Assembly: GCA_016214845.1 (NCBI GenBank)
Contig: JACRMS010000010.1
Span: forward strand, 1 to 50,926
Direction: 5' to 3'
DNA length: 50,926 nt
Source: Nitrospirota bacterium
GTDB lineage: Bacteria; Nitrospirota; Thermodesulfovibrionia; UBA6902
A program made the position numbers and the translations under genes. Positions 22,165-34,837 of this stretch are shown in pieces; the stretch's first letter is position 1, and each line of letters starts with the position of its first letter. The notes beneath the pieces were generated by a model, which was not told the DNA's origin, made no database searches, and saw only the letters and a list, made by a program, of their open reading frames with translations.

Positions 22165-22243
22165 GTTTTATTTCTTTACTTCCCTTTCTTTTTTTAATAA
22201 CATAGTAGCATGAAAAAACTGGATGTCGAAAGTTACATCAACA

Positions 22244-23500
22244 ATGCTTGAAAAACTAAGATACCTCACATCAGGTGAATCACACGGACAGGCGCTGACA
22301 TGCATTATTGACGGCGTTCCTTCAAATCTTTCGCTGTCTTCAAAAGACATTGATAACGACCTTGCCAGAAGACAGAAGGGCCACGGCAGGGGCGGCAGGA
22401 TGAAGATAGAAACAGACCACGCGCAAATCCTCTCAGGAGTGCGGCACGGAAAAACCCTCGGCTCGCCGGTAACGCTTTTGATAGAGAACAAGGACTGGCA
22501 GAATTGGTGTGATGTTATGACCCCCGAACCTGCGGCACGGCGCGCCGTGTCCCTGCGTTCCCAATCCCCAATCCCCAATCCCCAATCCCTTTCTGTTACT
22601 CATCCGCGTCCGGGACATGCTGATCTCGCTGGCGCGATTAAATACAGCACGCACGATATACGGAATATCCTTGAACGTTCAAGCGCGCGGGAGACTGCCG
22701 CGAGGGTCGCCGCAGGCGCCGTGGCAAAGAAGTTCCTCTCTGAATTTAATATTCAAGTGATAAGTTATGTAACCGAGATAGGCGGGATCAGAAGACAGAA
22801 CACAGAAGACAGAGCACAGAGCACAGACATAAAAACAATTTTATCCTTATTCAAAAAAGCTGAGGCATCGCCTGTGAGATGTCCGGATGAAAGCGCTGAA
22901 AAAAAGATGATCAACAAAATAACTAATGCGATGAAAAAGGGAGACACCCTCGGCGGAGTGTTTGAAGTCATTGTGCTTGGCGTGCCTGCCGGGCTTGGCA
23001 GTCACACCCAGTGGGACAAAAGACTCAATGCGAAACTCGCTTCTTCAATAATGGGAATTCAGGCTATAAAGGGAGTCGAAATAGGGCTTGGTTTTGAGAT
23101 GAGCAAGAGGCACGGCTCGGAAGTGATGGATGAAATTTTCTACAACGCAAAGGGCAAAGGGCAAAGGGCAGAGAGCATGGGATTCTACAGGAGGACAAAT
23201 AACGCCGGAGGCATTGAGGGCGGGATGAGCAACGGGATGCCAATTGTGGTCAGGGCTGCGATGAAGCCGATACCGACATTGAAAACACCCCTCGCCTCAG
23301 TTGATATTATCAGCAAAAAACCCTTTAAGGCGGCATATGAAAGGTCCGATGTGTGCGCAGTGCCTGCGGCATCGGTCATCGGCGAAGCGGTTACAGCCCT
23401 TGCAATCGCTGATTCTTTCCTTTCCAAGTTCGGCGGCGACAGCATGGAAGAAGTGAAGAGAAATTATAAGGGATACCTGAAGCAGATAAGTGAATTCTGA
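22244..23500 (+). CDS. aroC: Chorismate synthase with three in-frame repeat inserts
   Basis: Chorismate synthase makes chorismate from EPSP, the last shikimate-pathway step, using reduced FMN. Family marks: [65 protein letters not shown] and GIEGGMSNG. At 418 residues it is longer than usual; the excess falls in three low-complexity inserts ([33 protein letters not shown]), each made of dispersed repeat words yet in frame. The start at 22244 matches the family N-terminus; an ATG at 22223 is possible. Confidence 0.95.
22558..22592 (+). repeat. CCCCAATC-type repeat inside aroC
   Basis: About four tandem copies of CCCAATC words, the same words as in the intergenic repeats near 28409-28436, 28833-28857 and 34800-34823. 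It encodes [11 protein letters not shown] in frame just before the conserved HPRPGHAD motif. A second insert (22791-22828, ACAGAAGACAGAGCACAGA words) and a third (23149-23177, AAGGGCAAAGGGCAGAG words) follow in the same gene. Confidence 0.85.
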
Positions 23501-23563: not shown

Positions 23564-25135
23564 ATGAAAATCGTACTTACAGGCTTTATGGGAACAGGCA
23601 AAACTTCTGTCGGCAAAGAGCTGAGCAGAAAGCTCGGATACCAGTTCATTGACACCGATGTGCTGATTGAGGAGCGTGAGAAAAAACCGGTCTCTCTCAT
23701 CTTCAAGGAAAGCGGCGAGGAGTATTTCCGCAAGGTTGAACAGGCCGCGGTTGAAGAAGTCTCCCGGATGAACAATGTTGTAATCGCCACAGGCGGCGGC
23801 GTTATCAAGAATAAAAAAAATGTAGAGAACCTCGGCAGAATGGGTATTATCTTCTGGCTTCAGGCAGACCCGAAGATTATTCTCAAGAGAGTAATGCTTG
23901 AGGGAGGCAAAAGGCCGCTGCTTGATGTTGAGGAGCCCCTGCAGGAGATCAACAAACTGCTAACAGAGAGACTTCCGCTTTATCAGCAGGCTGATGCCTC
24001 AATTGATACAAATTATATTACGCCTGAAGAGACCGCACACGAAATAATTGAAATGTTAGGGCTTGACACGCAGGTCGTCACCGTTGATCTGAAAGAAAGA
24101 AGTTACGACATTGTCATCGGGAGCAAAGTCCTCCGGAGACTTGGCCTCAGGGTGAAAGAATTCAGGCCGTCCAAGGTCGCCATCGTCAGCAACAAAACGA
24201 TCTTCCCTCTATATAAAGAAACGGTCCTTAAATCGCTGGAAGAGTGCGGCATAACGCCCACCGTCATTCTCATCCCCGACGGAGAGGAATACAAAGACTT
24301 CATGTGGACCTACCACATACACGGCAGGCTCCTAAAGGCAAAGTTTGACAGGGACGGACTGCTCATTGCCTTTGGCGGCGGGGTCATCGGAGACATTACC
24401 GGCTTTGTGGCGTCAACTTATATGAGGGGCATAAGGTGTATCCAGGTCCCGACTACCCTGCTTTCACAAGTCGACAGCTCGGTTGGCGGCAAGACCGGGG
24501 TGAACCATCCGCTGGGTAAAAACATGATAGGCACTTTTTATCAGCCGTCGCTGGTCATGATTGATATTGATACATTAAGGAGCCTCCCGAAAGGCGAGTT
24601 TTCATCCGGCCTTGCGGAGATTATCAAATACGGCGTTATCGCCGACAAGGAACTCTTTGACAGCCTCGAAAAAAACAGGGAGGACATCCTCACTCTCGGC
24701 GACAGCATTATAAAAACCATCAAACGTTCATGCGAGATCAAGGCCGGTATCGTATCAAAAGATGAAAGGGAATCCGGCCTGCGCGCGATCTTAAACTTCG
24801 GGCATACGATCGGCCACGCATTGGAAACCGCCACCGGCTATAAAAAATTTCTTCACGGAGAGGCGGTCGCAATCGGCATGTGCGCGGCAGCGGACCTTGC
24901 GGTAAAAATGGGTATCTTCAAAAAAAGAGAGGCGGGGCGGATCAAGGGCCTCGTTGAATTATACAAACTGCCGGGCGCAATACCCGATGGAATAAATGCC
25001 TCCGATCTCATCTCCGCCATGGAGCTTGATAAAAAGGCCAAGGCAGGCAATATCAGGTTTATCCTGCCGGAGTCCATAGGCAAAGTCAGGATAGTGGACA
25101 GTGTCGACATGGAATTGATTAAAGGTGTTTTGTAA
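23564..25135 (+). CDS. aroKB: Bifunctional shikimate kinase / 3-dehydroquinate synthase
   Basis: A 523-residue fusion. Residues 1-165 are shikimate kinase: GFMGTGKTSVGKEL P-loop, FIDTDVLIE, ATGGGVI and GKRPLL with the lid arginine. Residues about 172-523 are NAD- and zinc-dependent dehydroquinate synthase: AFGGGVIGDITGFVASTYMRG, PTTLLSQVDSSVGGKTGVN, ILNFGHTIGHALE and HGEAVAIGM. The two enzymes catalyse non-adjacent shikimate steps; the fusion order AroK-AroB is known from a few lineages. It follows aroC by 63 bases, with a possible promoter (TATAAT near 23532). Confidence 0.96.
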   Translation: MKIVLTGFMGTGKTSVGKELSRKLGYQFIDTDVLIEEREKKPVSLIFKESGEEYFRKVEQAAVEEVSRMNNVVIATGGGVIKNKKNVENLGRMGIIFWLQADPKIILKRVMLEGGKRPLLDVEEPLQEINKLLTERLPLYQQADASIDTNYITPEETAHEIIEMLGLDTQVVTVDLKERSYDIVIGSKVLRRLGLRVKEFRPSKVAIVSNKTIFPLYKETVLKSLEECGITPTVILIPDGEEYKDFMWTYHIHGRLLKAKFDRDGLLIAFGGGVIGDITGFVASTYMRGIRCIQVPTTLLSQVDSSVGGKTGVNHPLGKNMIGTFYQPSLVMIDIDTLRSLPKGEFSSGLAEIIKYGVIADKELFDSLEKNREDILTLGDSIIKTIKRSCEIKAGIVSKDERESGLRAILNFGHTIGHALETATGYKKFLHGEAVAIGMCAAADLAVKMGIFKKREAGRIKGLVELYKLPGAIPDGINASDLISAMELDKKAKAGNIRFILPESIGKVRIVDSVDMELIKGVL

Positions 25136-25136
25136 A

Positions 25137-28100
25137 TTACGCCTTAAACTTCCTTCTCTTCCAGATCAAATAAATAGCCGGATAAATTGTCAGTTCAAGT
25201 ATCTCAGAGGTGACAACGCCGCCGATCATCGGGGCGGCTATCCTTTTCATTATGTCCGAACCAGCGCCGTGGCTGAACATGATGGGGACAAGTCCGGCGA
25301 GTATCACGCTGACAGTCATGAGTTTAGGCCTTATTCTCTTGACAGCGCCGTGCATGATGGCGTCCTTAAGGTCTTCAAGGTTATTCATCCTTCCTTCTTT
25401 TTTCCACTGCTCATAAGCCAGGTCCAGATACAGGAGCATAACCACGCCTGTCTCCGCGTCCAGCCCGGCAAGGGCTATCATCCCGACCCAGACCGCGATG
25501 CTCATGTTGTAATTGAGCATATACAGAAACCAAAAGGAGCCCACCAGGGAAAAAGGCACGGCAAGAAAGACGATCATAGTTTTTGTCGTGGATTTTGTAT
25601 TTAAATACAGGAGCACGAATATTATTAGAAATGTAAGAGGGATTACGAGCTTGAGTCTTTCATGCATCTTGACGAGGTATTCATATTCCCCACTCCATAC
25701 AAGACGGTAACCGGCAGGCAGCGTTACAGCGGATGCCACTTTTTTTCTGGCGGTCTCGACATAGCCGCCGAGATCGCTACCTGAATAATCGACATAAATA
25801 TAATTTGTAAGAAGCCCCTCCTCGCTCCTGATAGTTGTGGGGCCTTTTGTAATATTAATGTCTGCAAGCTCGCCAAGAGGGACCTGAAGGGATTGGGGGT
25901 TAGGGGTTGGGGATTGGATAGACTGACCCATTCCTTCCTGCCCTTTGCCCTCTGCCCCTTGCCCCATCGCTACCGGGACCAGTATCCTCTTTATCTTTTC
26001 AATGTCATTTCTTAACTCTCTTGGATAGCGGATGTTGACAGTATACCGCTCCCTGCCTTCCACAGTGGAGGTAACATTCATCCCACCGATCGCAGTCTCT
26101 ATCATGTCCTGCACGTCGTCCATTGACAGGCCGTAACGCGCTATCTCTGTTCGCCTGGGCTTAATATCAAGAAAGTATCCTGTCGTTACCCTTTCGGCAT
26201 AAGCGCTTCTTGTGCCGGGGATGCTTTTGATCGCGTCCTCAACCTCCCTTGATATTTTCGCTATTTCTTCCAGGTGCGGGCCGATGACCTTCACCCCTAC
26301 ATTTGTTTTTATGCCTGTCGCATTCATGTCAATCCTTGCCTTGATAGGCATGGTTATGGAATTTGAAACTCCAGGGATGCTCAGCGCGTCGTTCATCTCG
26401 TTCCTGAGCTTAGTCATGTCCATCCCCTTCCGCCACTCTGATTCCGGCTTGAGATTTACAACGGTCTCAAACATTTCAAGAGGGGCCGGGTCCGTGGGGG
26501 TCTCCGCCCTTCCGGCCTTGCCGAAGACCTGGTACACTTCCGGGATACTCTTTAGAAGCTTGTCCTGGATCTGCAGGAGTTTTGAGGCCTCGGATACAGA
26601 CGCGCCGGGCACGGTAACAGGCATATAAAAGAGCGACCCCTCATTTAATGGCGGCATGAATTCCGTGCCGAGCTTCATGGAAGGAAAAACTGTAATGTCG
26701 AACATCGGCAATATGAATATAACGGCGGTAATGAGGACAATTATCAAAGAAAACCCAATGATGGTCTTGCTGTATCTCAGGGAAAATGCCACTCGCGGCC
26801 TGTACAGTTTACCCAGGAAATGGACAATAGGATTCTTTTCCTCCGGCCTTATTTTTCCTCTTATAAAAAGAGTCATCAGGACAGGCGTAAGAGTAATCGC
26901 GAGGAAGGATGAAAAGAGCATCGCAAAGGTCTTCGTATATGCGAGGGGCTTAAACAGCCTGCCAGCCTGCGCCTGAAGTGTGAACACCGGAAGAAAGCCC
27001 ACCGTGATCACGAGCAGCGAAAAGAACAATGACGGGCCGACTTCCTTAGCCGCCTCGATGATTACGTCGGCTCTTGTCTGTTTTCTGTCTTCTGTCTTCT
27101 GCCCTCTGCCCTCTGTCCTCTGTCCTTCATGTTCCCACTCCTCTAATTTCTTATGCGCGTTCTCAACCATTATTATTGACGCATCAACCATTGCTCCTAT
27201 CGCAATAGCGATGCCGCCGAGGCTCATGATATTGGAGGTGACGCCGAGGTAATACATGCAGATGAATGAAATGATGATCGCAACAGGCAAGGTTAGAATT
27301 ACGACAAGCGCGCTCGGAAGATGGAAGAGAAATACTATGCATACCGCGCTGACGGCGACGGAAAGCTTGATGATTTCCTCTTTGAGCGTGTCAATTGAGC
27401 GGTGGATGAGATCGGTCCTGTCATATGTTGTGATGATCTTCACTCCCTTTGGCAGGGAGGGCTGGATGTCCTTTTCTATCCGCTCCTTTACGCGCTCTAT
27501 AACGCTAAGGACATTTTCTCCGAAGCGGACCACGACGATGCCGCCTGTTACCTCGCCTTTTCCGTCAAGCTCGGCAATGCCTCTCCGTATCTCAGGGCCT
27601 AATTGTATCTGAGCTACATCACGAAGGAGTATGGGCGTGCCGGTGTTGTTTGTTCCGACAGAAATATTTTTCAGGTCATCTATGCTCTTTATATAACCGC
27701 GCCCTCTTACCATGTATTCGGCACCGGAGAATTCAATAACTCTGCCTTCAACGTCTTTGTTGCTCTTTCTGACAGCATCGATGACCTTCATGAGAGACAG
27801 GTTGTAAGCAGCGAGACGGTTAGGGTCTGTTGTTATCTGGTATTGTTTGACAAACCCGCCGACACTGGCCACCTGTGAAACCCCGGGGACGCTCTCAAGG
27901 GCAAGTTTTATATTGTAGTCCTGCATAGTGCGGAGCTGCGAAAGATCGTGGCTTGCGGATTCATCAACGAGCGCGTAACTGAAACCCCATCCAAGACTGG
28001 TGGCATCAGGCCCGAGCACGGGGTTTGCTCCTGCCGGCAGTTTCCCTTTTACGATCTGAAGATATTCGAGCAGGCGGCTCCTGGCCCAGTAGATGTCCGT

Positions 28101-28400
28101 CCCCTCTTCAAAGATCACATATATGAAGGAGCTGCCGAGAAATGAAAACCCGCGCACTGCCTGGACCTTTGGCGCGGCGAGCAAAGATGATGTTATCGGG
28201 TATGTTATCTGGTCTTCCACAAGGTCAGGGCTTCTGCCTTCCCACGACGTGAAGACTATGACCTGCGTGTCGCTCAGATCAGGGATGGCGTCGAGCGGCG
28301 TATTTCTAAGCGCCCAGTATCCCCACGCGCAGAGGAAGAATATCATAAGAAATATGATGAACTTGTTCCTTGCGCTGTATTCGATAATTTTAGAAATCAT
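25137..28400 (-). CDS. cusA: Heavy-metal efflux RND transporter, CusA/CzcA family
   Basis: A 1087-residue inner-membrane pump with 12 membrane segments and two large periplasmic loops. The N-terminus [56 protein letters not shown] and [26 protein letters not shown] are typical of the HME branch. It exports Cu(I)/Ag(I) or divalent metals with CusB and a TolC-type channel. About 45 residues above the family length come from two repeat inserts ([17 protein letters not shown], 27073-27128; [14 protein letters not shown] and following, 25889-25966). The start overlaps the preceding gene by ATGA. Confidence 0.95.
   Translation of the reverse strand: [1087 protein letters not shown]
25889..25966 (-). 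repeat. In-frame repeat insert in cusA (two word families)
   Basis: GGGATTGGGGGTTAGGGG words are followed by CCCTTTGCCCTCTGCCCC words. The translated insert ([20 protein letters not shown]) lies in the second periplasmic loop, before [9 protein letters not shown]. A second insert in the same gene, at 27073-27128, consists of TCTGTCTTCTGCCCTCTGCC words. Confidence 0.85.
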
Positions 28401-28798
28401 GATTTCCTGGGGGTTGGGGATTGGGGGTTAGGGTTTAGTTTTGAGACAAGACTTCTGATTTGTCTGCCAATCACGGTTATACGTTCTATAATTTTCTCTT
28501 TTGATTCTTCATCCATGTAACCTAATTCGCTTGCTATTATCATCTGTGTTTCCAATTCTGCTAAAGAACCTAATGCGATAAATAAAAATTGTTTAAATTC
28601 TGCTCTATGGTTTCTAATATGTCCTTCAGCAATATTAGATGGTACTGAAACAGCAGCACGACGAATTTGACTGGTTAAACCATAGGTCTCTGCGCTTGGA
28701 AAAGTTTTCGTTGTTTCATAGATAACTTTTACAAGTTTTATTGCATCCTGCCAAATTGTTAAATCCCTAAAACTTTGTATTTTGCTGTTTGTTCCCAT
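28397..28798 (-). CDS. Four-helix-bundle protein (23S rRNA intervening-sequence protein family)
   Basis: A 133-residue helical protein of the four-helix-bundle / S23 family, first noticed in intervening sequences of 23S rRNA genes. SFRDLTIWQDAIKLVKVIYE, YGLTSQIRRAAVSVPSNIAEG and FLFIALGSLAELETQ are the family motifs. Its biochemical role is unknown. It sits between cusB and cusA, flanked by inverted repeats, and its last residues (NPNPQSPTPRKS) are encoded by repeat DNA. The stop overlaps the cusA ATG, so translation may be coupled. A TTG two codons upstream is another possible start. Confidence 0.9.
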   Translation of the reverse strand: MGTNSKIQSFRDLTIWQDAIKLVKVIYETTKTFPSAETYGLTSQIRRAAVSVPSNIAEGHIRNHRAEFKQFLFIALGSLAELETQMIIASELGYMDEESKEKIIERITVIGRQIRSLVSKLNPNPQSPTPRKS

Positions 28799-28857
28799 AA
28801 CCAAGACCCAATCCTTTTTTTCTTTTCCGTCACCAACCCCTAACCCCCAACCTCTAA
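28398..28857. repeat. Inverted repeats flanking the four-helix-bundle gene
   Basis: Left words GGGGGTTGGGGATTGGGGGT (about 28409-28431) and right words CCCCTAACCCCCAACC (about 28837-28852) are in opposite orientation and enclose the whole small gene, as if it entered the cus operon as one repeat-bounded unit. Confidence 0.6.
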
Positions 28858-29996
28858 TCCCTTTTTTTAATCGGCGTTATTCCTTTCAACTGCGCTTCCG
28901 AATCAATGAGGAATGTTCCTGATGAGGCGACTTTTTCTCCTGCCTTTAATCCGTCAATGACCTCTGCCATTCCGTCAGCTTTCAGCCCTAATGAAACTTC
29001 CCTCGGCTCAAAATAGCCCTCTCCTTTATCAACATAAATTATCTGCCTTGCCCCTGTATCAATTACTGCGCTGTCCGGGATTACGAGCCTCTTGCCCATG
29101 TCGATCCTGATTTCAACATTTGTGAACATCTGGGGCTTCAGTTGAGCTGACGGGTTGTTTATGGTGAATCTCACCTTGGCCGTACGTGTTTCACCTGCAA
29201 GTGAAGGATAGATGTAATCGACAGATGATGAAAAGACCTTGCCGGAGAAATAACTGAGGCTGATGTCAGCGGCCTGCCCTATCTTGATAAACGGTATTTC
29301 ATATTCATAAATGTCCGATATGACCCAGACGCTTGATAAATCCGCAAGGTCAAAAAGTTTTTCACCCGGCATCACACGCATCCCCTGCAGCACGGCCTTC
29401 TGAACGACATACCCGTTTGCGGGGCTGTAAATCGTCAGGGTCCTTACCGGCTTTCCTGTTTCCTCTATCGTCTTTATCTGCTCATCGGTTATGTCCCATA
29501 ATTTCAATCTCCGCCGGGCAGCATCAACCAAACTTCCAGCATCTTTTGACAGCATTGAGCTGATTGCTGACTGCTGACCGCTGACCGCTGATTGGTTCCA
29601 CTTCAGCACATTTATAAATTCCTGCTGGGTCGCCACAAGCTCGGGGCTGTAGAGCTCCGCGAGCGGCTCGCCTTTCTTCACATACTTCCCGGTGTAATCA
29701 ATGTAGAGTTTTTCTATCCATCCTTCAATTTTTGTATTTACAGTGGTAAGCATTTTTTCGTTATATTCAACGCGCCCCACGGTCCTGATGATCTTCTGCA
29801 TCGGCTTCACAGCAGCCTCTGTTGTTTTAACGCCGATCAATTGCTGTTTTTCAGGCTCGATCTCAACAGCCGGGGCCTCCTCCTCTGCCTGCGGCGCTGC
29901 CGCTTCATGCTGGTGCTGGGAATATGATGGAGAGGTGCTGAGAAAGGCTAATAAAAAAATTATCAATCCGGGGATCATTAAGGCTTTTGTTTTCAT
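28854..29996 (-). CDS. cusB: Heavy-metal RND efflux periplasmic adaptor, CusB family
   Basis: A 380-residue membrane-fusion protein: signal peptide (to about 26), a His/Glu-rich stretch HQHE, barrel-sandwich hybrid (VGRVEYNEKMLTTVNTKIEGWIEKLYIDYTGKYVKKGEPLAELYSPEL), alpha hairpin, and beta-barrel and membrane-proximal domains. It links CusA to the outer-membrane channel. The helical hairpin contains a repeat-derived segment (SAVSGQQSAISS, 29553-29594). It lies 25 bases after cusC. Confidence 0.93.
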   Translation of the reverse strand: MKTKALMIPGLIIFLLAFLSTSPSYSQHQHEAAAPQAEEEAPAVEIEPEKQQLIGVKTTEAAVKPMQKIIRTVGRVEYNEKMLTTVNTKIEGWIEKLYIDYTGKYVKKGEPLAELYSPELVATQQEFINVLKWNQSAVSGQQSAISSMLSKDAGSLVDAARRRLKLWDITDEQIKTIEETGKPVRTLTIYSPANGYVVQKAVLQGMRVMPGEKLFDLADLSSVWVISDIYEYEIPFIKIGQAADISLSYFSGKVFSSSVDYIYPSLAGETRTAKVRFTINNPSAQLKPQMFTNVEIRIDMGKRLVIPDSAVIDTGARQIIYVDKGEGYFEPREVSLGLKADGMAEVIDGLKAGEKVASSGTFLIDSEAQLKGITPIKKRD

Positions 29997-34736: not shown

Positions 34737-34823
34737 TTAGGGGTTAGGGATTAGTAAAAAAACTACCGCTCAATCTTTACTACTTCTTTTGCTTCCTTTA
34801 CTAACCCCCAATCCCTAATCCCC
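34737..34823. repeat. Inverted GGGGTTAGGGATTAG repeat between dnaX and SRP RNA
   Basis: GGGGTTAGGGATTAG (about 34739) faces CTAACCCCCAATCCCTAATC (34801-34820). This is the same word family that occurs inside aroC and cusA and around the four-helix-bundle gene. Confidence 0.7.
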
Positions 34824-34837
34824 GTCTTTTTTTAAAG

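Follow-up and report, generated by a model that had tools for sequence, protein, structure and literature searches.

The described system nearest to the locus reported here is the intervening sequence (IVS) of 23S rRNA that carries an S23p ORF. In Coxiella burnetii, this ORF, a member of PF05635 (23S rRNA-intervening-sequence proteins, IVP), is enclosed by a long stem of terminal inverted repeats, whose loop it occupies; it is preceded by tandem heptamers of the word GACAGAT, and belongs to what has been called a selfish element (PMC4990558). The homologous ORF, the stem and the heptamers are all common to the IVS and to an element located in the window, that is, the whole stretch of 50,926 nucleotides of Nitrospirota DNA that was analysed. 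In contrast to the IVS, the window element sits between two protein genes, whereas an IVS occupies helix 25 or 45 in 23S rRNA, no Rfam match was found between positions 25000 and 32000, and so it does not count as a 23S insertion. Neither word-protein specificity nor gene-free relatives, both treated below, are described for IVS in the literature that we found. The tie to 23S rRNA intervening sequences drawn in the original prediction is upheld by family membership and by the anatomy of the Coxiella IVS, with its S23p ORF after tandem heptamers and its inverted stem (PMC4990558).

Dispersed arrays of 7-8-bp units, as found here, have been described in several other bacteria. Xanthomonas carries GGGAATC arrays, partly as inverted pairs, and Nostoc carries GGGGA(C/T)T arrays, for which a quadruplex role was proposed (PMC4692102); Geobacter metallireducens has tandem hepta- and octanucleotides of four to five units, read as regulatory (PMC2700814); and TAACTGA repeats near gene starts in Beggiatoaceae were also read as regulatory, with a postulated repeat-binding protein (PMC4679880). 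By term search, none of these three papers names PF05635 as a partner of the arrays, and a literature search that was thin on subscription journals found no published link between PF05635 proteins and short tandem arrays. Proteins of this family have appeared as hits in CRISPR and diversity-generating retroelement (DGR) neighbourhood screens (PMC10910872, PMC10053308).

REP/REPIN-RAYT systems (PMC3116915 and general knowledge) likewise have one gene between inverted short repeats and gene-free palindromes spread in trans, and their repeat type follows the protein, as it does for the IVP elements described here. However, RAYT is a Y1/HUH transposase of the PF01797 type, whereas the window IVP protein matches only PF05635 and, weakly, an Avd-like family, and REP arms are single palindromes whereas those of IVP elements are tandem arrays; the window element is thus not of the REP/RAYT kind. 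Avd, a component of DGRs, is a pentameric four-helix bundle that binds reverse transcriptase (RT) and nucleic acid. It (PF22296, NF033474) is a distant homologue of the window IVP protein, which gave 25.4 bits against the Avd equivalog NF033474, far from its cut-off of 80, and a weak match to PF22296 (E=8.9e-8), below the cut-off of that family; neither an RT nor a template or variable repeat was noticed next to the IVP gene.

The IVP gene and its arms in the cus operon

As the original prediction had it, a gene bounded by oppositely oriented repeats lies between cusB and cusA, which both profile searches and the inverted arms bear out. The IVP gene (28397..28798, minus strand) encodes a four-helix-bundle protein of 133 aa within an ORF spanning 28397-28804, the start being most likely the ATG at 28798, with an in-frame TTG at 28804, and the stop the TGA at 28399-28397. 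In profile searches, the protein was a full-length member of PF05635 (E=5.2e-39) and TIGR02436 (E=5.5e-37), with 133 and 126 bits across the domain against curated cut-offs of 33.8 and 24, and it showed no domain match other than PF05635 and the weak bAvd one. It also matched in sequence the solved homologue 2GSC, a homopentamer (E=1.4e-27). Its neighbours were found by profile to be genuine CusB-type adaptor (28854..29996, minus) and CusA-type pump (25137..28400, minus) genes. Comparison with the closest homologue, at locus L074, gave a dN/dS of 0.09, near saturation, and the recent pair L054/L072 gave 0.12; values of about 0.1 indicate purifying selection on the gene, so the protein works.

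The arms are inverted GGGGRTT arrays, each with four units and part of a fifth. The upstream arm, 5' of the gene (28833..28862, minus), consists of the units AGGGATT, AGAGGTT, GGGGGTT and AGGGGTT followed by GG, reading AGGGATTAGAGGTTGGGGGTTAGGGGTTGG on the coding strand (28862-28833), and extends into the last codons of cusB; the 3' end of cusB is thereby truncated or extended, and the GHKH-type C-terminus that is frequent in relatives is missing. The downstream arm, 3' of the gene (28408..28438, plus), reads TGGGGGTTGGGGATTGGGGGTTAGGGTTTAG on the plus strand; it carries the same heptamers in inverted orientation and supplies the last IVP codons (NPNPQSPTPRKS). The inverted repeats had been correctly predicted, although their unit is not the GGGGTTAGGG first proposed but GGGGRTT/AGGGRTT heptamers, and the right edge of the element moved to ~28862. 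These arms are not due to chance: the inverted-arm score of the locus was 18, against a control median of ~9, and only 0-1/98 controls reached at least 14. In the predicted RNA fold of the element, the two arms pair with each other and enclose the entire ORF (z = -3.86; none of 100 shuffles was as stable), giving a stem of terminal inverted repeats like that of an IVS. The window thus holds an IVP gene between inverted 7-9-bp arrays, which is what we call an IVP element.

The IVP stop and the cusA start share bases as ATGA, so the predicted overlap, as well as the origin of the last codons in the repeat, was borne out. An identical ATGA overlap between IVP and cusA genes was found at L074. As cusA itself opens with ATGAT in the relatives read, and a frame entering one base off terminates at that TGA, the stop/start coupling is largely supplied by cusA.

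The cusB-cusA junction lacked the IVP gene in 19 relatives, in agreement with the predicted insertion into the operon; the gap there was of a few hundred bases at most and often contained other hairpin repeats. The window and its relatives are mostly draft assemblies, and the junctions of L020 and L028, where the automatic cusB stop was misplaced, were read by eye. In L019 and L026, cusB ends in similar AGGGATTAGGGGTT heptamers with no IVP gene. Apart from the window, the gene was found in one operon only, L074, at 71% identity and with GGGGRTT arms as in the window: the same gene with the same flanks thus occurs in one other lineage, at the same junction, and no cus operon was found that carried the gene without repeats. 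This arm match concerns a single junction, and the relation between word and protein described below therefore rests on other loci. The CusB and CusA proteins of L074 group with those of L027, which lacks the IVP gene. Those of the window give trees that disagree, CusB grouping with L018 and CusA with L021 (both without the IVP gene), a conflict that suggests recombination near the junction. The two occurrences of the gene may reflect a double entry at the junction, transfer between lineages by recombination, or several losses.

A different class of palindromic repeats, CCCCCCTTTGACAAAGGGGG-like and AGGGGCGGGG...CCCCGCCC, was seen in L018, L029, L031 and L034, in the cusA loop or the cusB-cusA gap. 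It has no short-period arrays and is dispersed at the same permissive sites.

Repeat words and proteins across the IVP family

Seven IVP genes were found in the genome of the window, most of them bordered by repeats of differing words (GGGGRTT, AAGGCTG, GAAGTGA, TTCGGAA, AGGCACAA and AGTGTCAA). For a wider survey, loci from many phyla were picked by profile or tblastn score only, and 250-bp flanks were searched for an inverted match between both flanks with a score of at least 14. Such a match was present at 76/98 IVP loci (55/65 from the phylum of the window and 21/33 of the others), against 0/98 and 1/98 at two control distances, 5% for mispaired flanks from different loci, 3/48 for cusB/aroC loci and 12/860 for small ORFs in the window genome. 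Chance proximity of arrays and IVP genes is ruled out by these position, gene and cross-locus controls. The arms are imperfect tandem repeats of 7-9 bp, their word varying between loci, and clear tandem arrays were present in both flanks at 86/112 IVP loci, with a period of 7, 8 or 9 in 83 of these 86. About one fifth of the IVP loci had no clear inverted arms, and in L011 the arms were in direct orientation. At the level of sequence, these counts show the inverted-array anatomy to be the rule for the PF05635 family across phyla. An A-rich stretch bordering the arms on their inner side, visible by eye in hairpins, was not clearly enriched at IVP loci and was dropped.

IVP copies on cyanobacterial plasmids have the same build, with AGGGTGT, AGGGAGT, GGCAGAA or ACAGGTG arms, and some are inserted at an nrdB-nrdA or a cas6-cas4 junction; within this set, no clear arms were seen by eye at L279. 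The cas6-cas4 copy (L280) lies in a type I-D CRISPR operon of plasmid pANA02 of Anabaena sp. 90. Plasmids 1 and 2 of Calothrix brevissima NIES-22 (L275 and L276) carry the same AGGGTGT-armed IVP gene behind an integrase gene, in what looks like one segment common to both plasmids.

The word followed the protein. Pairs of IVP proteins with more than 75% identity had the same word on the same strand in 14/14 cases, a proportion that was 70% at 60-75% identity, 10% at 50-60% and 0.5-4% at lower values. Among non-syntenic pairs, those of at least 60% identity shared a same-strand word in 20/32 cases (opposite strand, 3/32), and those below 50% shared a word in only 25/1583 (1.6%). The same word together with the same protein recurs at unrelated loci of different phyla, and the 9-mer AAAGTTTRT was found with related IVP proteins in Bacteroidales, Desulfocapsa and Patescibacteria MAGs. 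These comparisons show, within the loci surveyed, a word specific to the IVP protein subfamily.

Cores were counted as consecutive in-register 4-nt cores. At IVP loci, five was the most frequent number both in period-7 arms (39/88; four in 27) and in period-8 arms (15/32). Dispersed period-7 arrays also had a mode of five cores (43/94), and dispersed period-8 arrays peaked at four (8/19). As it is the core count that stays constant at IVP loci when the period changes, and not the array length, we propose one subunit per core and infer that each subunit of an IVP pentamer may read one repeat core.

That the arrays could be ordinary simple-sequence repeats or G-quadruplex features born of slippage, with an incidental IVP association, is very improbable on these data. 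The GGGGRTT family can indeed form G-quadruplexes, as argued for the Xanthomonas and Nostoc repeats (PMC4692102), but most words (AAAGTTTRT, GAAGTGA, AGCTATC, CGTGAAA) have the same anatomy without G runs, for which reason G-quadruplexes were rejected as a common cause. Moreover, only periods 7-9 are enriched (see below), the arms are inverted, the core count peaks at five, and the position controls are near zero.

Gene-free arrays and signs of movement

Arrays without an IVP gene were also detected. Within the window, these comprise a gene-free hairpin of the GGGGRTT family (34737..34824), a translated GGGGRTT array inside cusA (25888..25915, plus) and a translated array of the word GGGGATT inside aroC (22563..22590, minus), which is replaced by other words in other species and is absent from distant ones. 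In aroC (22223-23500), two loop sites hold different translated words according to the species, one of them being empty in distant relatives, and the words of the translated array at the cusA loop site differ between species in the same way. Across 851 kb sampled from this genome, array density was 110/Mb for 7-bp, 22 for 8-bp and 6 for 9-bp units, against 0-3.5 for other periods and 0 in shuffles. An artefact of codon phase was rejected, since the enriched periods are 7 and 8 and not multiples of 3. Within 160 bp, 47/118 arrays were accompanied by an inverted partner, mostly with a loop of <40 nt, and 6 by a direct one (control, 0).

The density of 7-9-bp arrays rises with the number of IVP genes in the genome (rho 0.64, p 0.0014, uncorrected for kinship among genomes), while that of other periods does not, and ~615 kb sampled from 11 genomes without IVP genes contained no 7-bp array. 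As exceptions, G144 and G178 had six IVP hits and no dispersed arrays in 60 kb. Several abundant words of the window genome, such as CAGAAGA, have no matching gene among its seven IVP genes, and for these a further source or a past loss must be assumed. CAGAAGA is the most abundant dispersed heptamer, with 26 arrays in the L151-L190 sample of this genome (G000).

Candidates for movement were L054 and L072, which share an arm-to-arm block of 441 bp with 94% identity and lie at non-homologous loci with no homology outside the block. The L072 site, a single site in a related genus, was found filled by the full element in G062, decayed in G054 (contig C104), where arms and the first IVP codons are followed by another repeat, and empty in G045, with 57 bp in place of ~470. 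Matches to the two stretches, nearly all of them in arms, numbered 85-121 in G054, whereas G062 and G045 had fewer (13-22 in one and 7-12 in the other). L055 and L112 (G040) were rejected as a clean within-genome transposition, as homology runs past the arms and both copies have an internal stop. These near-identical copies, with the same internal stop, adjoin what seem to be short regularly spaced repeats, perhaps CRISPR-like.

These data bear on the suggestion that the gene travels as a passenger, caught between pre-existing heptamer repeats that spread independently and are themselves mobilised by something else. The heptamer remnant kept without the gene at the cusB end of L019 and L026 would suit it, as would the abundant words lacking an IVP gene in this genome; however, a copy without the gene can be what is left of a decayed element, G054 being an example, the word depends on the protein, 76/98 IVP genes lie within arms and genomes without IVP genes have no 7-bp arrays. 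We thus largely disfavour this reading, and the passenger role originally predicted is probably wrong, given that most genes of the family, in many phyla, lie between such arrays. Since this association is widespread and protein and word covary, the IVP gene looks instead like the specificity factor of its own element.

The strongest rival, unlikely in our view, takes the IVP protein for an RNA-binding regulator encoded by an ordinary gene, its flanking arrays being autoregulatory operators and the dispersed ones a regulon spread by selection or slippage. Ring proteins that read tandem RNA words do exist, TRAP being one (general knowledge), and covariation of word and protein suits any kind of binding. 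Regulatory readings have also been given to the TAACTGA repeats of Beggiatoaceae (PMC4679880) and the arrays of Geobacter metallireducens (PMC2700814). Against this, the arrays in the coding loops of aroC and cusA are swapped for other words or absent in relatives, the gene-bearing form has filled and empty states, word and protein occur together at unrelated loci of different phyla, and no conserved target gene was seen.

The proposed IVP element and its possible reach

We consider it likely that the window feature is one copy of a selfish, recombinase-less IVP element whose protein would recognise the arrays of that element; both the binding and the chemistry of transposition are inferred from sequence. 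Such an element consists of a long hairpin that has a PF05635 gene as its loop and, as its arms, two inverted arrays in which a word of 7-9 nt recurs about five times. The protein, whose solved homologue 2GSC is a homopentamer, would bind its own array in such a way that each subunit takes up one repeat core. Its target could be single-stranded RNA or DNA, or a hairpin, because a spacing of 7-9 nt does not fit the DNA helical turn. Binding would help the element itself and its gene-free copies, in trans, to spread, and strand transfer would be carried out by host enzymes or a further partner, since the IVP protein has no known catalytic domain (nuclease, recombinase or RT). The copy between cusB and cusA may be tolerated by virtue of its position between genes and of the ATGA overlap, which would pass translation on to cusA.

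On a broader view, for which we see about equal grounds for belief and doubt, PF05635 proteins would form rings that read sequence, each subunit taking one core, and would serve a very common type of recombinase-less prokaryotic mobile DNA, with protein and word changing together; this would explain the rRNA IVS as well as the orphan heptamer arrays known from cyanobacteria, xanthomonads, Geobacter and other groups. If true, two old puzzles would be joined, namely, what makes the 7-8-bp tandem arrays of many bacterial genomes and what purpose the 23S-IVP family serves. It would also offer a simple and testable protein-word pairing, and, with operons and coding loops as its insertion sites, a candidate mobile element for which no recombinase is known. 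When neighbourhood screens (PMC10910872, PMC10053308) link IVP genes to CRISPR or DGR systems, these genes may be hitch-hiking elements. Comparison with about 100 relatives suggests that the IVP family and its repeats make up a single class of mobile DNA, widespread and little recognised, with a separate word for each protein.
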